A stretch of DNA of 45,002 bases from a virus: the IMG/VR virus record IMGVR_UViG_3300031566_006752, positions 1 through 45,002 of that record; one strand, written 5' to 3'. Below are positions 3,427 through 42,708 of the stretch, piece after piece (positions within the stretch are counted from its first letter, which is position 1; each line of letters opens with the position of its first letter). The notes beneath the pieces were generated by a model that saw nothing but the letters and a program-made list of their open reading frames with translations, was not told where the DNA came from and searched no databases. Made by a program: the position numbers and the translations under genes.

Positions 3427-4599
3427 TTACTTTATTTTTAAAATGTGTTTACAAATTTCAATTTCTTTTTCATCCCCGAGGTGTTTACCATTGGTATCAG
3501 AGAGTTTAATGGTTGGAGTCCAGTCGTCGCCCTCGGGCTTCGCCTCTGTCATCTTTATTACCATGTTTAATGGCTTTAATCCAACATCATTGGTGAAGTT
3601 TGTGCCAATGCCGAATGAACACATGATCTTTCCTCTGCAGTACTCTTTGATTTCGACTGCTTTTTCAGGATTTAAACTATCTGAGAAGATAATTACTTTC
3701 GATTTGGGATTTATTCCCAATTTATTGTAATGTGCGATGGTTTTATCCACAAATTCTACGGGATCTCCACTATCCTGACGAATTCCATCATAAAGTTTGG
3801 CAAATTTCGTTTCAAATGACTTGAAGAAAACATCGGTCGTGAATGTATCTGATAGCGCAATACCAAGGCTCCCCCTATAAACTTCAGACCAGTGTTCCAT
3901 TGCAAGTGAATTGGCCATCTTGTAACCATACTTTGCGGCATGAAACATGAACCACTCATGGGCTTGGGTGCCCAGCGGTTTGATGTTATTTAGAAATGCA
4001 AGGTATACATTAGATGTTCCTGTGAAGTTTTCATTTCTTCCATTGTTAGCAAACTGCGCAACAACCTCTGCATGGTTATCAAATGATTCTCTTCGGCGAG
4101 TTCCTAAGTCTCCATAATGTATACCATTCATACGGAAGAGTAACATCTTTTGGGCGTTGTTTTTTTCACGAGTCTGAGCATCCCATTTTTTACCGCCTGT
4201 CATCTTAAAATACAATTCAGAAATGGCAGCCATTAAATTTGTTTCCCATAGGATTGTACGGTGCCAATAACCCTCTATTGAAACGTCAAGGTCAGAACCA
4301 GACTGAATGATACCAACTTCAGAAGAATCAAATCTGTATCCGTATAAGAAATCAAGATACGTTGGTTCAAGGAAACCATTACACCTCGTATGGAGAAATA
4401 TTTTTTCATGTTTAGTCATTGCGAGGGCTTCCATTTCCTTTACTTCTTGACGAAGCGCTTCTCCAAACCCCTCCGGAAACGCAGTTTTTCCCCTATTGAT
4501 AAACTTATAGCGTACCTTCGCTCTCGGAAAGAGCTTGATCACTGCTTGTTGCATTGTTAATTTATAGAGGTCGAGATCTAAAATGCTTTTTATAATCAT
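3427..4599 (-). CDS. pncB: Nicotinate phosphoribosyltransferase
   Basis: 390 residues, full length for the family. It converts nicotinate and PRPP to nicotinate mononucleotide in the Preiss-Handler NAD+ pathway. Diagnostic segments are DLYKLTM near the start, GYWHRTILWETNLMAAISEL, GTSNVYLA followed by GTQAHEWFM, DTFTTDVFF, YDGIRQDSGDP and SDSLNPEKA. A nicotinamidase and an NAD synthetase lie 5-8 kb downstream in the same orientation, so this phage carries three of the four steps from nicotinamide to NAD+. Confidence 0.9.
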   Translation of the reverse strand: MIIKSILDLDLYKLTMQQAVIKLFPRAKVRYKFINRGKTAFPEGFGEALRQEVKEMEALAMTKHEKIFLHTRCNGFLEPTYLDFLYGYRFDSSEVGIIQSGSDLDVSIEGYWHRTILWETNLMAAISELYFKMTGGKKWDAQTREKNNAQKMLLFRMNGIHYGDLGTRRRESFDNHAEVVAQFANNGRNENFTGTSNVYLAFLNNIKPLGTQAHEWFMFHAAKYGYKMANSLAMEHWSEVYRGSLGIALSDTFTTDVFFKSFETKFAKLYDGIRQDSGDPVEFVDKTIAHYNKLGINPKSKVIIFSDSLNPEKAVEIKEYCRGKIMCSFGIGTNFTNDVGLKPLNMVIKMTEAKPEGDDWTPTIKLSDTNGKHLGDEKEIEICKHILKIK

Positions 4600-10230: not shown

Positions 10231-10533
10231 TTAGTTTTCATTATCAAACGTAAATTCTTCATTACAGTGCGGACACAACCACGTTTCTTTCCATGTGTAT
10301 AATGGTTCCGGGGCAATGGCGTATTTGCTGATAATGTGAGTGTGGTGACCACTTACGTGTTCTATCTTTGGATAGTATTCAGGCGGTACGGGTAATTCAG
10401 TTTCTACGATATCATCGTGGCACAAATCAAACACCTGTTTTCCATTATCGTCTAACCGATAATACGTGCCATCAAATTCGGCTTCATCCCATCCGCATTG
10501 TGGGCAATTATATTGCTCTAAGTTAAACTCCAT
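10231..10533 (-). CDS. Zinc-ribbon protein
   Basis: 100 residues from the ATG at 10533, which overlaps nadE by 11 nt; a longer frame would overlap by 89. CPQCG near the start and CPHC near the end form a zinc site spanning the protein. A metal-rich HHTH stretch lies between. Function unknown. Confidence 0.65.
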   Translation of the reverse strand: MEFNLEQYNCPQCGWDEAEFDGTYYRLDDNGKQVFDLCHDDIVETELPVPPEYYPKIEHVSGHHTHIISKYAIAPEPLYTWKETWLCPHCNEEFTFDNEN

Positions 10534-11347
10534 CAATTGCAGATTTTGGTATGTTAAAGGGGTTATTCCTTTTAAACTCAGTTCGATGGTATCTTTGAAG
10601 AACCGGATCATCTAAATCGCCAATTCCCGATGCAAGGTGAGACTGTAATCTTAAATCGACGAGTTTGTATCCATCTCTTGAAGATCCCTCCCATGTTGGT
10701 AAAATTTGGTCAAGATCAGTCTTTGAAATTCCAAGACCATCAGTTGCCTGGCATTCAATACATTCTTTTAGGGCTTTTTTCTGGAAATCAAATTCTGATT
10801 CATTTTCCATGATCCAATCTGCCATTTCATAAACCTCAGTTTTCCAGAGGTTCTGAATCATTCCATAATCCCCAACATCTCCATGCAACGTCCAAAAACC
10901 AAGAAGATATTCCGTATAATTATCTGTTGATAAAACCATACCTTTATGAATTTGCGCCAAATCATAAAGATAAATCATCCGTAAACGAGCCTTAATGTTT
11001 CCCCTGCGAATCTTCTCGTTGGGTTCTTCAACGTCCCATCCCTCTGGTCCGGTTACTCCCCATATGCTCGTAAAGGCTGATCCCAATTCATATACATCAT
11101 CAAATGTATGGCAAAAAGCTTTTCCAACCAGTTCTCCTCGATCTACTTCATCAATTCCATTTCCAAGAGTGATGCTTCGCCCATGCAATTGGATTCCCAA
11201 TTCGTCGCATACGGGTTTTGCTAATGCAGCACATAGCGTACTGTCAATCCCACCAGATATTCCCATTACAAGGGATTGAATTTTGTTTTTTTCAATGTAA
11301 CTTTTTAATTCTGCCCTGATGTTTTGTGTTGCTTTTTCGTAGTTCAT
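10523..11347 (-). CDS. nadE: NAD synthetase (ammonia-dependent type)
   Basis: 274 residues. The ATP-pyrophosphatase loop is GISGGIDST (residues 29-37). GNIKARLRMIYLYDLA and STDNYTEYLLGFWTLHGD match the deamido-NAD binding segments. It amidates nicotinate adenine dinucleotide to NAD+. There is no glutaminase domain, so it would use ammonia. It starts 4 nt inside a small upstream gene (ATGA). No adenylyltransferase (NadD/NadM) was seen in the window, so the middle step would fall to the host or to a gene elsewhere. Confidence 0.9.
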   Translation of the reverse strand: MNYEKATQNIRAELKSYIEKNKIQSLVMGISGGIDSTLCAALAKPVCDELGIQLHGRSITLGNGIDEVDRGELVGKAFCHTFDDVYELGSAFTSIWGVTGPEGWDVEEPNEKIRRGNIKARLRMIYLYDLAQIHKGMVLSTDNYTEYLLGFWTLHGDVGDYGMIQNLWKTEVYEMADWIMENESEFDFQKKALKECIECQATDGLGISKTDLDQILPTWEGSSRDGYKLVDLRLQSHLASGIGDLDDPVLQRYHRTEFKRNNPFNIPKSAIDGV

Positions 11348-14725: not shown

Positions 14726-16402
14726 TTATATCTCGATAGCGTTTATAGCATCGATGACTTCGTTGATATTTACTTCCATTTGTGGAATTTTTTCGTAAAT
14801 ATCTTGAGTGTATCCGTAAAGACGGAATACCTTTTGTCCACCCTTTATAGGAGCGGTTGTTGAATATCCAACAACATCAATCAAGTAAACGTATGGGGTT
14901 CCAAACTTGTTTACATACTTCTTGAAGTTGTCTTCAACTCTACTGTATCCATCTTGCATGTCAGAGATTATTACAACTCTGTCATACTGAGTGTTATTAT
15001 CTGCGAACAGATTGAAGCAAGACGCAAAGTCAGTACCGTGACTACACTTTCCGTTGTAAGAAGTAAACTTCTTCTTCAGAGTGTTAACAGAATCAGTTGG
15101 GTTCCATCCAGTAATCTTTTCAGACCATGATGCAAAGTGATAAACATCACCTCCGATGCCCTTTGCAAAAGTAGCGGCAACTAGTGCAGCCTTCTCAGCA
15201 GGGGTTGAGCTGGATCTCTTACCACCTGGAAGCGCAACGCCTCTACCAGTCATAGAACCAGATGTATCGAATACAACTGCAGTTCTACCTTCAGGAAGCA
15301 ATTCCTTAAGGTTTGGAATGGAAGCTTCATACGCCTTTCCAAGCGCATCGGCAACCTTAGCCAATTGACGACCGTTGAATTCAAGAAGCATAACTTCAAG
15401 AGCAAGGTCAATTTGGTGTGGCCATACAAGTGACTTCTTAATGAACTTAGGTTCAATAAGCAATTCACACGCAGCATCCAATAGAGGAGTATCATTAGTC
15501 TTAAGAATGTTTCTCAAGTTACGAAGCAATGCCAAGTAACCAATCTTCTTAGTCTTGATAAGTTCCGCATAGTTTTCAGTCTTTTGTTCAACGAGAACCT
15601 TTTCAGCTTCCGCCTTAGTGATTTCGCCTGACTTAACTGCTTCTGCAACCTTCTTACCAGTTTCAGTGTTCTTATCTTCAACAGTATTGAACTGCTTTAG
15701 GATTCCAAGAACAAGAGCACGAAGTGCAGGAACTCTTACAGTTCCTTCAACAACTTCGTTGAATGTGTCCTTTTCGAACTTTGTACCAACAATAGCCTTG
15801 ATGTAATCTGCAGTTGGTACATCAACGTAGCCATTCTTTTCAGTTGGAACTGGGTGAACAGCGTTAACGATGTCAACCAAACTCAAAGTGCTAGACTTCA
15901 TTTGGTACTTAGCAAGTTCGTACGCATCAGCGTTTTCAATAGCGCCCTTGAAACCTCTCTTCATGGCACCTGGAATGGTATTGGTCTTATTCTTCGCACG
16001 GTAGCACGCAAGAATTTCCATCATATCGTCAAGACGATAGATTATACCACCTTCGTTGCCCTTACGGTTTCTCTTAGAGAAGAATCTCTTTCCAAGTTCA
16101 TCACCAGAAAGGTGAGGCAATAGATTAACCGCTCCAACGTGGGTAACGGATCTTTGACCGAATACGCTACGTGCATAGACGAGTGCCTTTGCAGCAAAGA
16201 GCTTATCTTTCTTCGCGATGGTATCAATAACTTCGCGCAAACGAGTTTCGCGTTCTGATTCCTTTTCATAAAAGGTATTCTGGATTCCTGTGGATAGGAT
16301 TCCTACGAGTTCATGTTCTGGTCTTTGGGTTTGACCGGATCCACCTTGGTGAGTAGTAGTCTTTTGAACTACAGGTTCTCTCTTTTGATTGTACTTAGAC
16401 AT
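14726..16402 (-). CDS. Ro60/TROVE-family RNA-binding protein
   Basis: 558 residues, full length. An N-terminal TROVE helical-repeat ring (about residues 25-365; note RSVFGQRSVTHVGAVNLL and LLRNLRNILK) is followed by a von Willebrand A domain with the metal site DTSGS (379-383) and later SHGTD and ISDMQDG. Ro60 proteins bind Y RNAs and misfolded RNAs. A strong Shine-Dalgarno (AAAGGAGG) precedes the ATG, unusual among neighbours, and the gene is visibly less AT-rich. It is flanked by terminators at 14692-14717 and 16442-16476, with candidate partner RNAs just upstream. Confidence 0.9.
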   Translation of the reverse strand: MSKYNQKREPVVQKTTTHQGGSGQTQRPEHELVGILSTGIQNTFYEKESERETRLREVIDTIAKKDKLFAAKALVYARSVFGQRSVTHVGAVNLLPHLSGDELGKRFFSKRNRKGNEGGIIYRLDDMMEILACYRAKNKTNTIPGAMKRGFKGAIENADAYELAKYQMKSSTLSLVDIVNAVHPVPTEKNGYVDVPTADYIKAIVGTKFEKDTFNEVVEGTVRVPALRALVLGILKQFNTVEDKNTETGKKVAEAVKSGEITKAEAEKVLVEQKTENYAELIKTKKIGYLALLRNLRNILKTNDTPLLDAACELLIEPKFIKKSLVWPHQIDLALEVMLLEFNGRQLAKVADALGKAYEASIPNLKELLPEGRTAVVFDTSGSMTGRGVALPGGKRSSSTPAEKAALVAATFAKGIGGDVYHFASWSEKITGWNPTDSVNTLKKKFTSYNGKCSHGTDFASCFNLFADNNTQYDRVVIISDMQDGYSRVEDNFKKYVNKFGTPYVYLIDVVGYSTTAPIKGGQKVFRLYGYTQDIYEKIPQMEVNINEVIDAINAIEI

Positions 16403-16476: not shown

Positions 16477-16518
16477 GTAATCCAAATAATCGTAATAAAA
16501 TGGAATATAAAGTTAGTC

Positions 16519-16603
16519 GAGAAAATTGGTGAGAGTTTTTCTGTCTGGCTTTCGCCTGATCTTTCTTATGGTTGAAACGAAGTATCTCTTACCTTACTAC
16601 AAC
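16519..16603 (-). ncRNA. Candidate Y-like RNA element, copy 1
   Basis: On the minus strand it starts GTTGTAGTAA and ends AATTTTCTC, exactly as copy 2. Inside, arms GGTAAGAG and CTCTCACC pair (one A-C mismatch). The variable middle holds a GGC-GAAA-GCC tetraloop hairpin. A boxA-like GTTCTTTA lies 18 nt upstream and a strong terminator about 43 nt downstream. It sits next to the Ro60 gene, as bacterial Y RNAs do. The Y-RNA identity is inference. Confidence 0.5.
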
Positions 16604-16640
16604 AGTGCTTTTCAATATTTTAAAGAACAAAAATTTTGTT

Positions 16641-16702
16641 GAGAAAATTGAGCAGAGTATTTTTTCATTTTTCCTACGAAGTAACTCTATTCTTACTACA
16701 AC
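16641..16702 (-). ncRNA. Candidate Y-like RNA element, copy 2
   Basis: Same ends as copy 1. Its arms are GAATAGAG and CTCTGCTC. Against copy 1 one outer pair changes G-C to A-T and another A-C to T-G, so pairing is partly kept while sequence changes. The middle is shorter and lacks the tetraloop hairpin. Confidence 0.5.
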
Positions 16703-16713
16703 TAAATTTTATA

Positions 16714-18312: not shown

Positions 18313-18329
18313 TCACATCCTTCTGGTCG

Positions 18330-18403
18330 CGATCCCAGCGGGACTCGAACCCGCGACGCTTGCTTTTAGAGAGCAACGCTCTGACCAACTGAGCTATGGG
18401 ACC
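18330..18403 (-). tRNA. Suppressor tRNA, anticodon CUA (reads UAG)
   Basis: Cloverleaf is complete: acceptor GGTCCCA/TGGGATC, D-stem GCTC/GAGC, anticodon stem TTGCT/AGCAA, T-stem GCGGG/CCCGC. The 7-nt loop is CTCTAAA, giving anticodon CTA with U33 and A37, the same loop as the classical supF suppressor. The variable arm is short, so it is not a Tyr or Leu type. Amino-acid identity cannot be read with certainty. Confidence 0.85.
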
Positions 18404-24800: not shown

Positions 24801-24881
24801 AGGTAGTTAAATTTAACAATACAGTCTAACCCACGATCGTTGCTGCAACTGCACCCCATTCAGCTTTTGGGTGTTAAATAG

Positions 24882-25099
24882 AGACGGGGGACGGATTCGA
24901 ACCGCCGACCTCCAGGTTGTTGTACTTCCTCCTTACCTTCAAATCTCTTTTTTACAATTACCAGGGAGCGACCCCAGATCAAGCAAAATGACCTAAATGA
25001 TGATTTATCAGAAGTATCGATACCCATACTTAAAGCTTAATGCATGCTCTTTAAGATGTCATCGATCCTGACGCTCTGTCCGGGCTGAGCTACCCCGCC
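24882..25099 (-). tRNA. Interrupted tRNA with about 143 nt in the anticodon loop
   Basis: The 5' part is acceptor GGCGGGG, D-arm GCTC-10nt-GAGC and stem TCAGG. The 3' part is stem CCTGG, T-arm GGCGG-TTCGAAT-CCGTC and acceptor CCCCGTC. All stems pair. Between TCAGG and CCTGG lie 150 nt instead of 7. The insert forms local hairpins, such as CTTAAAG-GC against GC-TTTAAG, and TAAAT-CATC-ATTTA. The expected terminal G of a group I intron is not at the right place and 143 nt is short for that class. The anticodon cannot be read. Confidence 0.6.
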
Positions 25100-25282
25100 A
25101 TTCGTATTTCAGAACTCCAGAACGGAGCACCGTGGAACCTTTCCTCACTTTCATAAATATCGGTCTACCACACATTTGGGTAACAACTCCCAATGCGAAC
25201 TGTTTCGTCTGCCCAGGTTGCCTTAACGGCTGGCTTACTTATCAGTTCAGGCTATTAACAACACAACAAAGAACGTTAACTG
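25100..25282 (-). other. Structured leader of the interrupted tRNA
   Basis: No gene. A boxA-like GTTCTTTG (25267-25274) begins it, and hairpins such as CTCC-GTTCT-GGAG follow. It joins tRNA-Tyr to the interrupted tRNA. Confidence 0.3.
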
Positions 25283-26560: not shown

Positions 26561-26588
26561 TTAATTAAAAAAGTAGAGAAAATTTAAG

Positions 26589-26671
26589 AGTGTATTGAGG
26601 ATTTGAACCCCGTGTCCCGAAGGACGCCTGTTTTTCAGACAAGTGTGTATACCAATTTCACGATGAAACAC
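26589..26671 (-). tRNA. Class II tRNA with GAA anticodon, degenerate
   Basis: Loop CTGAAAA in stem CTTGT/ACAGG gives GAA (Phe), but a long variable arm (GTCC-TTCG-GGAC) and D-arm AAATTGG follow the Leu plan. Acceptor and T-stem contain mismatches. It may be a Leu tRNA with altered anticodon. Confidence 0.55.
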
Positions 26672-26693
26672 TACTTAGTTACTACTACTATTG

Positions 26694-29170: not shown

Positions 29171-29189
29171 TTTTATTTTATTTATTTGG

Positions 29190-29262
29190 TCGAGGTGGCC
29201 GGGCTCGAACCGACGGCCCCGTGCTCCCAAAGCACGTAATCTACCAACTGATCTACACCTCG
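29190..29262 (-). tRNA. tRNA-Pro(TGG), copy 1
   Basis: Acceptor CGAGGTG/CACCTCG, anticodon arm CGTGC-TTTGGGA-GCACG. 19 nt upstream of the DUF1593 ATG. Confidence 0.92.
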
Positions 29263-29322: not shown

Positions 29323-29323
29323 G

Positions 29324-29396
29324 TCGGGGTGGCCGGGCTCGAACCGACGACCTCCTGGTCCCAAACCAGGCACGCTACCAACTGCGCTACACCCCG
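29324..29396 (-). tRNA. tRNA-Pro(TGG), copy 2
   Basis: Acceptor CGGGGTG/CACCCCG, anticodon arm CCTGG-TTTGGGA-CCAGG. T-arm CGTCGG-TTCGAGC same as copy 1. Confidence 0.92.
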
Positions 29397-29734: not shown

Positions 29735-29860
29735 TGGGGAAGGTTGGAGTTGAACCAACTGACTTTAGTATTTCAAACTAACGTTTAACCGATGAAACTC
29801 TATGCGTTACTATGAAGAAATTCAAGAAAATTGCGAGAGCATTTTTAAAACTTCTTCCCC
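29735..29860 (-). tRNA. tRNA-Phe(GAA) interrupted by 53 nt after the acceptor strand
   Basis: Acceptor GGGGAAG (29860-29854) pairs 7/7 with CTTCCCC (29742-29736). D-arm GTTT-CATCGGTT-AAAC, anticodon arm TTAGT-TTGAAAT-ACTAA and T-arm GTTGG-TTCAACT-CCAAC are perfect. Between base 7 and base 10 there are 55 nt instead of 2. The 5' strand begins 4 nt after tRNA-Gln, so the placement is tight. Confidence 0.75.
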
Positions 29861-29864
29861 ATTG

Positions 29865-29937
29865 TTGACCCTCCAGGGCTCGAACCCGGACTCTTGTGGA
29901 CCAAAACCACACGTGTTACCAATTACACTAAGGGTCA
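29865..29937 (-). tRNA. tRNA-Gln(TTG), normal
   Basis: Acceptor TGACCCT/AGGGTCA, anticodon arm TGTGG-TTTTGGT-CCACA. D-stem GTGT/ACAC with 8-nt loop. Confidence 0.93.
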
Positions 29938-29976: not shown

Positions 29977-30091
29977 AAATGGATGTTTACCGCTTACACT
30001 AATTGAACTTTAACGACAATGCTAATGATGCATTGTGCGGTTCAATGATGGATTCGAACCATCCTCCCATTATTTTGAGATGTCCATTCAG
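29977..30091 (-). tRNA. Candidate circularly permuted tRNA 1
   Basis: On the minus strand the 3' part comes first: AATGG, T-arm GATGG-TTCGAAT-CCATC, acceptor ATTGAAC (30046-30040). After 31 nt holding hairpin CAATGC/GCATTG comes the 5' part: acceptor GTTCAAT (30008-30002), TA, D-arm GTGT-9nt-ACAT and CCATT. Acceptors pair 7/7 and CCATT/AATGG 5/5. The break falls in the anticodon loop, so the anticodon is unclear. An alternative local hairpin CATTT/AAATG exists in the 5' part. Confidence 0.55.
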
Positions 30092-30164
30092 AGCCGGAGA
30101 CAGGAATCGAACCCGCGACATCTTCATTACAAGTGAAGCGCTCTACCTACTGAGCTACTCCGGC
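30092..30164 (-). tRNA. tRNA-Thr(TGT)
   Basis: Acceptor GCCGGAG/CTCCGGC, anticodon arm CTTCA-CTTGTAA-TGAAG. Standard cloverleaf. Confidence 0.93.
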
Positions 30165-30200
30165 ATTACAAACTGAGAAAATTGACTAGAGATATTTTAT

Positions 30201-30285
30201 CGTGCTACCAATTACACTAATCCCGCATAAACATGGAGCGGGACCCAGGATTCGAACCTGGACTAATCGTTCCCAAAACGAAGTA
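30201..30285 (-). tRNA. Candidate circularly permuted tRNA 2, anticodon TGG
   Basis: Minus-strand order: anticodon arm TTCGT-TTTGGGA-ACGAT, T-arm CCAGG-TTCGAAT-CCTGG, acceptor GTCCCGC (30244-30238), then TCCA and 7 nt, then acceptor GCGGGAT (30226-30220), TA, D-arm GTGT-AATTGGTA-GCAC and G. Acceptors pair 7/7 (one G-U). The loop is identical to both normal Pro tRNAs. The break lies between D-arm and anticodon arm. The bases after the acceptor read T-CCA, as if a CCA end were encoded. The D-arm itself resembles tRNA-Gln. Confidence 0.65.
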
Positions 30286-30304
30286 ACTCTTGGTCGTTAC
30301 TACA
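30286..30304 (-). other. Hairpin before permuted tRNA 2
   Basis: GTAAC-8nt-GTTAC on the minus strand directly precedes the anticodon arm. It could mark the 5' processing site. Confidence 0.35.
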
Positions 30305-30312
30305 GTCTATAG

Positions 30313-30383
30313 AGGTCCCTCCCAGATTCGAACTGGGGTCTCTGGTTTTGCAGACCAGCGCCTAACCGCTCGGCTAAGGGACC
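30313..30383 (-). tRNA. tRNA-Cys(GCA)
   Basis: Acceptor GGTCCCT/AGGGACC, anticodon arm CTGGT-CTGCAAA-ACCAG. First tRNA of the array in the direction of transcription. Confidence 0.92.
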
Positions 30384-39747: not shown

Positions 39748-40317
39748 TTATCTCTTCGCCCAGGGCAACCGTGTAATAAAATCATAATAGGATCGAATTA
39801 TTTGATCGTGACCCCACGCCCAATCGTAATGATGCAAATCTTCAATGTGTACCCATTTCATTTTTCCTACTTCTCCTTCAATCTCGTTATTATCAGCGTG
39901 TAATACAGGAAACCACCTTTGTTTAGTGTATAAACCATATCTCAGTGATACATTTTGTTTATTGTTATCGGTGGGATTTGTTTGAACGTGCCATGGTTGA
40001 TCGATGTTAACGCTATAAACCTGAATAGCGTCCTCAATCATATTGGATATATTGATGCCAACTTCTTCCCAGGTTTCCCGTATGAGCGCATCTGTACCTG
40101 ATTCATCATAATCAAGATATCCAGCGACGTTATTCCATAATCCGATATTATCTGCCGCATTTTTACCTCGTTCAGAAACAAGTGCGTATGGTCCTGGACT
40201 ATCAAAATCTATAACATCTATAAGTATTACACCATTGACAGCAACGCTTCTGCTTTCCCAGATTATTCTTCCGTCTTTAACTTTGTGCCATTTATTTGGC
40301 GTATTATTGAATGTCAT
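39748..40317 (-). CDS. Nudix hydrolase
   Basis: 189 residues. The Nudix box is GYLDYDESGTDALIRETWEE then VGI (66-88). Such enzymes cleave nucleoside-diphosphate linkages; the substrate is unknown. It overlaps the ligase gene by 4 nt. A link to NAD+ metabolism is possible but not shown. Confidence 0.88.
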   Translation of the reverse strand: MTFNNTPNKWHKVKDGRIIWESRSVAVNGVILIDVIDFDSPGPYALVSERGKNAADNIGLWNNVAGYLDYDESGTDALIRETWEEVGINISNMIEDAIQVYSVNIDQPWHVQTNPTDNNKQNVSLRYGLYTKQRWFPVLHADNNEIEGEVGKMKWVHIEDLHHYDWAWGHDQIIRSYYDFITRLPWAKR

Positions 40318-41612
40318 ACGTCTCTCCCTTCATTATAAATTGCTTTTACTGTTGGAAACCTTAAACTTATTTCTCCGTGTTGATTTACGGTTTCTTCAAA
40401 ATATTGAACCGTTATTTCCTTGCCCACAATTCTGTCAGGGTATTTGTAGAAATACTGGCGTTGTTCAATTGAAAATCCAGATCCAACCGAAACTGGGTAT
40501 CCTTTATGTTCTATCCAGACACTCCTGACCATATCCTCGGTGACCTCCAGGCCGTCAACTATGATCCTAAATGGACCAATATCAATGTCCTGTACAATGT
40601 ACTCGGCGTCAAAAAACTGCTTACATTTAAGAAGATTGTTTGATCTCTTTCCCTCATATGGAGCGTCCTTACGTATCATAATTCCTTCCCATCCATTCTT
40701 TTGGGCCATTGTATTTAGTTCGGTCAAGTGTTCACCTGACTCAACTTTCCATTGTTCAACGTGGCTAAGAACATCTCCATAATAATTATCCATCATAAAC
40801 CTGATAAACTTTTGTCTTTCTGATGAAATTTGAGAGCTGTACTTCTTTTGAAAATGATCAAGATCTAACAAATCAAATATCTTAAACCGGGGATTTTGAA
40901 TGGTGTGATCTTTTTTATTGTATTCCTTTAAGATAGCCTGGAAATCTTCGTCTCCGTTTTCGTTTACTATACATAATTCACCATCAAGCACAGTATCTAT
41001 TAAATTTAAAGGTAACAATGCTTCTTTTACTTTATCAAGTGTAAGAAATTCATTACCGTTTCGAGAGTATGCTTTGATGCTTCCGTCGTGATCGATAATT
41101 ACAATACATCGAACTCCATCAAGTTTCCTACTAGCATACCAAGTATCCTTTTTAAAATCCACCTTCTTCACCATCTTCTCATCATACTTATTTGCCAACG
41201 CGACATCAAATGTAGGAATAAGATCAGGGAAAACTTTGTTTATGATTTTCTCAGACACCCTCGTTTTAAGGTTACGATCAAATATATTAAGAATGATTTC
41301 TTTATATTCAATATTATCTCTGATAAATGCATTGACATCGGCAATAGCTTCGTGCCCCGTTATTCTTCTATTTCCAAGATCGTCCAATAAATCTAGAATA
41401 TCTTCATGAGATTGACGTGATACCAAATCAGATCTTTTGATTATATTCTTTGGGGTTACATAATATTGTACGAATGGGTTATGAGTAGCTTTCAAAATGG
41501 CCTTTATGAATTCTGTATCATATTCAGGCTTTGAAAGTGTAGCAGTTTTTTCGAGTGTTGAATTCGAAACATTGAGCTCATCAATGAGCTGTTTGAGAAG
41601 ATTAAATTCCAT
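40314..41612 (-). CDS. ATP-dependent DNA ligase
   Basis: 432 residues. Motif I is SRKLDGVR (adenylated Lys163), motif III region VLDGELCI, motif IV EGIMIRK, motif V LLKCK. An N-terminal helical domain (1-140) and a C-terminal OB domain follow the T4/cellular ligase plan. An RNA ligase reading is less likely. Confidence 0.85.
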   Translation of the reverse strand: MEFNLLKQLIDELNVSNSTLEKTATLSKPEYDTEFIKAILKATHNPFVQYYVTPKNIIKRSDLVSRQSHEDILDLLDDLGNRRITGHEAIADVNAFIRDNIEYKEIILNIFDRNLKTRVSEKIINKVFPDLIPTFDVALANKYDEKMVKKVDFKKDTWYASRKLDGVRCIVIIDHDGSIKAYSRNGNEFLTLDKVKEALLPLNLIDTVLDGELCIVNENGDEDFQAILKEYNKKDHTIQNPRFKIFDLLDLDHFQKKYSSQISSERQKFIRFMMDNYYGDVLSHVEQWKVESGEHLTELNTMAQKNGWEGIMIRKDAPYEGKRSNNLLKCKQFFDAEYIVQDIDIGPFRIIVDGLEVTEDMVRSVWIEHKGYPVSVGSGFSIEQRQYFYKYPDRIVGKEITVQYFEETVNQHGEISLRFPTVKAIYNEGRDV

Positions 41613-42708
41613 ATCTTTGTTTTCTTATTTTTAGTAACAGATCATCTAAAAGTTCTTGATCTATGTCTTTTGGTAAATCACATTCATCATAAACCTTATC
41701 GAGTTCTTCGATCATCGCCTCTGCTTCTTTAACGAGTTTGTCATATTCATATTCTCCTCGTCTTATCTCCATAAGAATTTTTATTTCTTCATCGGGTCTG
41801 CGAACGTTGATAAATTTGATCTTTGGGATTTCCAATGCAACATTCAAAAGACGAAATGTATGCATCATATTTTTGGAATCGTAATTTTTTCCGTGAGACT
41901 TATTCATCTTAACACGATCAGGGTTTCTTTCTTTCAGCCACGTTTGATATTCCTTATATCTTTTGCAATGTGTTGAGTACGCGTCCTTATTAAATATAAG
42001 GTATCCAATAACCATTAATCCTTTGGGAATGGAAGTTAACTGTACATCATTTGCTGTAACAGGATCAGAAACTATGCCGCTTCCTTCGTGTCTACGGTGA
42101 AGTTGATACATTGCATAAACATCATGTGCGTGGTCAACTTTTGCTAAACCAAAATCTCTTTGATCTATAGTATCTAACGTTCCAGATTGGTAGTACCTGT
42201 TAAAGTATTCATTAAGAGTGATTGAACCTCCTTCTTGAAGAACATAACAGAAGTCCAATACATTCTTACGAGTCATCTGTGATTCTTCCCAGTTCATCTT
42301 CTTGTTATACCCTTTGGCCTTTTTGATTTGATCGATAGCATATCCAGCAAAGGAGTAACGACACGTTTTCGTTAGAAATTTTGATGCGTGATAAGAAATG
42401 GATCCCCATTCTGTAGAATCGTGTTGAACACAATCTTCCGGGGCAAAAAGCAGTTCAAGAACTGTTGGGTTGTTTGTGCGAACAAGAGCAAGAAATCTAC
42501 TAAGTTCGTAGTAGACGATATCATTTAAGTCGTCTGCAACCTGCTCAACATACCCATGTTTGAGTATGTCTTCCAACGGTTGCACAAAAACTCCTCGCAA
42601 ATCTGTGTCGGATGTCGGTAACGATGTCCCATATGCATGGGATCCCATTATTGCTTCGAAGATAATTAAATCTTCGTCTTTTAAATATTGTATCGTGTAG
42701 TTTTTCAT
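41602..42708 (-). CDS. RlaP-family nucleotidyltransferase (predicted RNA repair)
   Basis: 368 residues. The polymerase-beta-type site is GSHAYGT (22-28) with SDTDLRG (33-39); NNPTVLELLF and YSFAGYA follow as in RlaP/MJ1435-like proteins. The family is predicted to act in RNA repair, adding nucleotides to cleaved RNA. It overlaps the ligase gene. It fits the tRNA-rich theme of this phage. Confidence 0.8.
   Translation of the reverse strand: MKNYTIQYLKDEDLIIFEAIMGSHAYGTSLPTSDTDLRGVFVQPLEDILKHGYVEQVADDLNDIVYYELSRFLALVRTNNPTVLELLFAPEDCVQHDSTEWGSISYHASKFLTKTCRYSFAGYAIDQIKKAKGYNKKMNWEESQMTRKNVLDFCYVLQEGGSITLNEYFNRYYQSGTLDTIDQRDFGLAKVDHAHDVYAMYQLHRRHEGSGIVSDPVTANDVQLTSIPKGLMVIGYLIFNKDAYSTHCKRYKEYQTWLKERNPDRVKMNKSHGKNYDSKNMMHTFRLLNVALEIPKIKFINVRRPDEEIKILMEIRRGEYEYDKLVKEAEAMIEELDKVYDECDLPKDIDQELLDDLLLKIRKQRYGI

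Follow-up and report, generated by a model that had tools for sequence, protein, structure and literature searches.

In the permuted tRNA genes of red and green algae and of Thermofilum, the 3' half is encoded before the 5' half with a short spacer between them, as in the locus described here, and the halves are spliced at a bulge-helix-bulge junction. In the permuted two-piece tmRNA (RF04321), too, the 3' strand of the acceptor stem precedes the 5' strand in the gene. The consensus of YrlA (Rfam RF02553) is also permuted and runs stem, T arm, loop-closed acceptor, D arm and stem again; YrlA-type RNAs are found, like the phage elements that we report, beside the Ro60/Rsr gene and on its strand, with their ends paired into a stem. 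Many bacteria and phages were reported by Chen et al. in 2014 to encode Y RNAs with tRNA-like domains close to Ro. According to Iyer et al. (PMC7824862), the RNA repair of some jumbo phages includes TROVE proteins, which have a tRNA-like partner.

We have analyzed a stretch of viral DNA of 45,002 nucleotides (IMG/VR record IMGVR_UViG_3300031566_006752, hereafter the window), for which a preliminary description had proposed a circularly permuted tRNA gene with a UGG anticodon. Our analysis indicates, with a probability of about 0.85, that the scrambled tRNA serves as the tRNA-like module in a Y-like RNA of the phage, one belonging to a new Ro-linked, Y-RNA-like family. RNAs of this kind are already known; the stem family and the range of modules that it carries appear to be undescribed in the searchable literature. 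A literature search, with most subscription papers and preprints lying outside it, turned up no article describing permuted tRNAs in phages.

A permuted proline module within a longer RNA

Read on the minus strand, the module runs from the anticodon arm (UGG) through the T arm, 3' acceptor strand, UCCA, spacer and 5' acceptor strand to the D arm:

30267-30281, minus strand: anticodon arm UCGU-UUUGGGA-ACGA, with the anticodon UGG at 30273-30275
30262-30266, minus strand: variable loop
30245-30261, minus strand: T arm CCAGG-UUCGAAU-CCUGG
30234-30244, minus strand: 3' acceptor strand GUCCCGC (30238-30244) followed by UCCA (30234-30237)
30227-30233, minus strand: spacer UGUUUAU between the 3' end and the 5' end of the tRNA
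30202-30226, minus strand: 5' acceptor strand GCGGGAU (30220-30226), UA (30218-30219) and D arm GUGUAAUUGGUAGCAC (30202-30217)

The structural claims of the preliminary description were borne out. The 3' part is encoded ahead of the 5' part on the minus strand, with 11 nt between the halves including the UCCA that was said to follow the 3' strand, and together the halves make a full tRNA. The acceptor strands pair at 7/7 positions, with one G-U, and the two normal Pro tRNAs (29187-29262 and 29323-29396) have an identical anticodon loop, UUUGGGA. As for the claimed folding, only 2 of 200 shuffles beat the fold of the module (z -2.6). Neither ARAGORN nor Rfam called a tRNA at this place. No ordinary 5' half was found upstream, where tRNA-Cys ends at 30312; since tRNA-Cys (30312-30383) and tRNA-Thr (30091-30164) flank the region tightly, none is hidden there. 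The same permuted layout was found in other phages with different anticodons. A chance origin is ruled out by this recurrence, by the covariation and by the shuffles; the permuted layout is genuine and is maintained by selection.

The module is the loop content of a longer RNA of ~145 nt whose 5' and 3' ends are paired. A conserved stem, absent from the earlier account, flanks it at 30282-30311 and 30167-30191. The element starts one base past tRNA-Cys, stops 2 nt short of tRNA-Thr, and is organized as P1, a bulged-U internal loop (UAGUAA...UUUCUC), P2 and UUACUUCG:

30167-30311, minus strand: whole Y-like RNA element, ends pairing
30303-30311, minus strand: P1 5' strand UAUAGACUG, from the fold and the P1 covariation
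30297-30302, minus strand: conserved loop UAGUAA, near-invariant, its second base covarying with a partner on the 3' strand
30287-30295, minus strand: P2 5' strand GACCAAGAG, from a constrained fold
30279-30286, minus strand: conserved UUACUUCG, its UCG doubling as part of the anticodon stem
30184-30201, minus strand: A-rich linker GAUAAAAUAU and P2 3' strand CUCUAGUC
30167-30181, minus strand: conserved UUUUCU, then P1 3' strand CAGUUUGUA

In the window copy P2 consists of 7 pairs plus an internal loop, weaker than in most copies, and in the free minimum-energy fold a local leader hairpin takes its place.

The window contains other unusual features, all but the NAD-synthesis genes on the minus strand. 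A second permuted tRNA-like structure (29981-30091) runs T arm, 3' acceptor AUUGAAC, hairpin spacer, GUUCAAU and D arm; it is closed by a 9-bp helix (CUGAAUGGA/UCCAUUUGG), lacks UAGUAA/UUUCUC, has an odd anticodon arm and gave a fold z of -1.1. At 29735-29865 a tRNA-Phe-like sequence (GAA) has its D arm separated from the 5' acceptor strand by an insertion of ~50 nt, and at 24880-25100 some 180 nt split a tRNA-like gene within or close to its anticodon arm. A tRNA called as Pyl with a CUA anticodon (18329-18403) is a possible reader of UAG. Besides, we found an RNA-repair pair (40314-42708), made up of the nucleotidyltransferase RlaP and of a ligase carrying DNA/RNA-ligase domains, and NAD-synthesis genes at 3427-4599 and 10523-11347.

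A family of elements with a covarying stem

The 634-kb phage LR745206 aligns to the site of the window element at 72%. The permuted tRNA of this phage is laid out in the same way; its anticodon is that of Cys (GCA), and both acceptor strands are altered, indicating compensatory change in the permuted orientation. The two copies have in common the leader GUAGUAA-N8-GUUACUUCG. Scanning viral contigs with the leader and with the D-arm/trailer gave many further copies, and a second conserved part was recognized after the insert (...ACA-P2-AAUUUCUC-P1), so that two helices close the element. With scanners of our own in place of a covariance model, and with thresholds set by hand, we found 124 and then 130 non-redundant copies of the full element in phage contigs; a broader version gave 137 matches, and for 771 kb of shuffled DNA it gave 0. 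Most of the element-bearing contigs are fragments. A single contig can have as many as 7 copies, and some copies lie within tRNA arrays.

The pairing of the stem is well marked. P1 strands pair at 5.0 of 6 positions with their own partner, against 3.32 +/- 0.12 with swapped partners, and RNAalifold on 24 copies with small inserts gave 11 pairs, 10 of them with compensatory change. The second base of UAGUAA and its trailer partner are A-U in 100 copies, G-C in 34 and something else in 3; as this loop base pairs with the trailer, the stem is a long helix broken by bulged U's. The elements therefore have the paired ends and the conserved bulged helix of a Y RNA (P1/P2 covariation and a single-base bulge). 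A member can be spotted by UAGURA or UGGURA followed by GUUACUUCG and after that by UUUCYC, all between flanks that pair. The window has three more:

26568-26692, minus strand: second element, with a linear tRNA-like module and a long variable arm; a weak copy (score 8.3, two mismatches, below the other copies)
16636-16706, minus strand: third element, with a small insert, upstream of the TROVE gene
16511-16607, minus strand: fourth element, with an insert of ~45 nt, 108 nt upstream of the TROVE gene

Linkage to a Ro60-like protein

14726-16402, minus strand: TROVE/Ro60-like protein of 558 aa, the presumed partner of the elements

This protein matched Pfam TROVE at 9e-8 (32.1 bits, cut-off 23); in a stretch-wise Pfam search the same gene scored 19.6 bits, under that cut-off. 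With phmmer it matched the TROVE structures 9l5y and 9kop at 6e-15. An AlphaFold (AF2) model had a mean pLDDT of 81.5 and a pTM of 0.59, and the 13 Foldseek matches of this model at E<=0.001 were all Ro60, Rsr or TROVE, including the Ro60 of Thermus phage phiLo, which gives the protein a Ro60 fold. Two window copies lie directly upstream of the gene; the permuted copy shares its strand at a distance of 14 kb. The elements are thus encoded near a Ro60 orthologue, as Y RNAs are.

The association is general. Of the 36 element-bearing records 23 had TROVE, against 2 of 12 controls, and most of the 13 records without a detected TROVE are fragments. The contigs had been chosen by the RNA motif only, so the linkage to Ro is not circular. 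A second set, independent of the first and retrieved with the UGGUGA form of the motif, gave 12 of 15 against 1 of 25 controls, the lone control having its match at the edge of the available DNA. When 4.8-15 kb around the gene were examined at the 23 TROVE loci (the whole contig for the window), 22 had elements near it, 1-7 copies each and all on the strand of the gene, with element-to-TROVE distances usually within 2.5 kb. The sole element match in a scan of GTDB genomes had TROVE ~540 nt downstream. In LR745206, searched on both strands, one of the four copies lies 388 nt upstream of TROVE and three are inside tRNA clusters, where the permuted copy is ~128 kb from the gene. The scanners found no element at the Ro loci of cr111_1 and of one Vibrio, one Streptomyces, one Desulfovibrio and one Arthrobacter phage (L188-L192). 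At one locus (L186, 400-440) a hairpin with a T run resembling an intrinsic terminator stands between the element and TROVE, suggesting that the element has its own short transcript.

What the stem carries

The same stem holds very different inserts: permuted tRNAs, whole linear tRNAs, hairpins similar to bare anticodon stem-loops, minihelices of T arm and acceptor, D-arm-first modules with the acceptor closed by a short hairpin, and longer RNAs (the smaller inserts were classed by eye). Complete tRNAs opened between the D and anticodon arms include the Pro of the window, the Cys of LR745206, and Gly, Met, Pro and others; other inserted tRNAs are opened in the anticodon stem or the variable loop. 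An automatic search for the order T arm, 3' acceptor strand, loop, 5' acceptor strand and D arm, which required at least 5/7 acceptor pairs in modules and swapped-partner controls alike, gave 36 permuted modules. Acceptor pairing is 7/7 in 31 of these and 6/7 in 5, a full seven being reached by 2.1% of swapped partners. After some joining of the halves ARAGORN called a tRNA in 36/36 modules, against 42/108 swapped combinations. In all 36 a tRNA-like module sits distal to the stem, as in Y RNAs of the bacterial and phage type.

Among modules split at the anticodon arm, the distance from UUACUUCG to the first tRNA base differs by several nucleotides. Some modules have an acceptor loop of 2-4 nt, which leaves no space for a CCA end, and many retain CCA and a spacer of 7-21 nt. 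Two inserts (L038 at 4341 and L108 at 3102) have UUA anticodon loops that would read the UAA stop if used as tRNAs. Inserts of 220-250 nt were seen in elements of L122 (near 10958-11220), L133 (near 8460) and L130 (near 7743), and the beginning of the L122 insert, AACTATAACGGTCCTAAGGTAG, presumably equals a stretch of 23S rRNA around helices 69-71. It is possible that the long inserts are modules mimicking rRNA; Rfam at its threshold gave no LSU match for them.

Proposed mechanism and alternative explanations

We infer that the Ro protein is the putative binder of the elements, and their function likewise. In the window the RNA would be freed from the transcript of the tRNA array by processing of the flanking tRNAs (the 3' end of Cys and the 5' end of Thr), and the phage Ro protein would then bind its stem. 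The halves would need no joining: moving the ends to the D/anticodon junction would hang the tRNA shape on the stem, as in YrlA. The Ro particle could then present mimics of tRNA to enzymes that bind or cut tRNA and engage them as a decoy or tether, which we tentatively take as the most likely use while giving it somewhat less than even odds. In a study of the Salmonella operon, competitive inhibition of an anticodon nuclease by YrlA was suggested as a possibility (PMC7790460); the bare anticodon hairpins and the many different anticodons of the elements fit this idea. The main alternative use would be tethering of an exonuclease, as in Deinococcus (PMC7790460). A wider and more doubtful proposal is that large phages carry Ro particles with a swappable library of RNA mimics, one module per target, as decoys against host defence nucleases that cut tRNA or rRNA. 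If true, the library would span permuted tRNAs, anticodon hairpins, acceptor minihelices and perhaps pieces of rRNA. As the modules comprise many isoacceptors and bare anticodon hairpins, the proposed role of Ro/Y RNPs against tRNA-directed defence is directly testable in laboratory phages.

The preliminary description took the locus for a permuted tRNA gene that depends on the joining of its halves. The permuted order is real, and the joining is unsupported, given the variety of inserts and the variable offsets. For a genuine gene of this kind, leader and trailer would pair, an endonuclease and a ligase (for example the RNA-repair enzymes of the phage) would join the D arm to the anticodon arm, and RNase P and 3' nucleases would open the acceptor loop to give tRNA-Pro. 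The complete cloverleaf with its CCA agrees with this, as do the ARAGORN calls on all the joined modules, and the RlaP (41602-42708) and ligase (40314-41612) genes in this genome are the reason for keeping such a gene in consideration. However, the leader/trailer pairing showed no bulge-helix-bulge, its consensus being P1, bulged loop, P2 and conserved sequence, and fixed cut sites could not rebuild a tRNA when the offset from UUACUUCG varies. Inserts without any tRNA, such as bare hairpins and T-arm minihelices, cannot become tRNAs, several acceptor loops are of 2-4 nt, and the window already has two normal Pro(UGG) tRNAs. We therefore regard a spliced permuted gene as very unlikely. Somewhat less improbable, although still unlikely, is a tRNA working in two pieces, in which cutting by RNase P and a 3' nuclease is confined to the acceptor loop while the acceptor and P1/P2 stems clamp the halves, as in permuted tmRNA. 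It is retained on account of the CCA and spacer present in many modules; besides, it is compatible with Ro binding, and one acceptor part resembles tmRNA_permuted in Rfam (24.9 bits, below threshold). Against it, decoding should suffer from a stem attached at the D/anticodon junction, and acceptor-closed modules exist.

The high conservation of the internal loops and a stem that is independent of its many types of insert might also suit a self-circularising ribozyme (a natural permuted intron-exon), the stem excising itself and the insert being closed into a circle. This was dropped as very improbable when the linkage to Ro emerged, which binding accounts for better, and given that the boundaries vary, with no constant exon limits; Rfam gave no ribozyme match, and whole linear tRNAs are also among the inserts. 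The several disrupted tRNAs in the array of the window could evoke a degenerate relic of a tandem tRNA duplication, which we rejected as scarcely credible: different tRNAs are permuted alike within the same stem, and unrelated phages show the same architecture with different anticodons, covarying acceptors and conserved flanks. The Y-like RNA that we favor has to contend with the position of permuted copies in tRNA arrays, distant from TROVE (14 kb and ~128 kb), with the 13 of 36 records that showed no TROVE, with the weak P2 of the window copy and its lack of a match to the Rfam Y RNA models, and with the CCA and spacer of many modules, which could allow processing of the ends into tRNAs. It accounts for a phage permuted tRNA without new splicing chemistry.

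Comparison with known systems

The claim of the preliminary description that such genes are not known in phages has to be corrected, since YrlA-like RNAs adjoin, on the same strand, the Ro genes of Streptomyces phage Quantum, Arthrobacter phage Atuin and the crAss-like csAssE-Sib (all below the Rfam threshold of 69 bits). Another lies next to Ro, on its strand, in a phage contig free of elements (L184). In csAssE-Sib (L187) we read three elements of the UGGUGA form, two of which the broader scanner found. Upstream of the Ro gene of this phage (5505-5920) the annotated tRNA-Tyr and tRNA-Lys sit inside UGGUGA-type elements, and may be modules of Y-like RNAs. An abundant Ro-linked RNA family is without an Rfam match, and some of its members (these two) are annotated as tRNAs.

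The two-piece tmRNA differs in its tag-coding part, which the elements lack, and in an unrelated flanking stem. In vertebrate Y RNAs (RF00019) the ends similarly pair into a stem that includes a bulged helix, but there is no tRNA module. As a lead, hY1 presumably has GUAGUGAGUUAUCU, similar to the UAGURA...GUUACUUC of the elements. The window element gave no match to the YrlA and Y RNA models (RF02553 and RF00019) at E<=10, and for this reason we call it Y-like and place it in neither Rfam family. The closest approach to YrlA comes from an element-bearing phage in which the element is 28 nt upstream of Ro and its module matches YrlA positions 23-89, whereas its stem does not. Unlike YrlA, then, the phage elements have a stem outside the Rfam model, and their modules, which often include complete anticodon arms, represent many isoacceptors with several opening sites and in some cases are just hairpins or minihelices, in as many as 7 copies per contig and partly within tRNA arrays.
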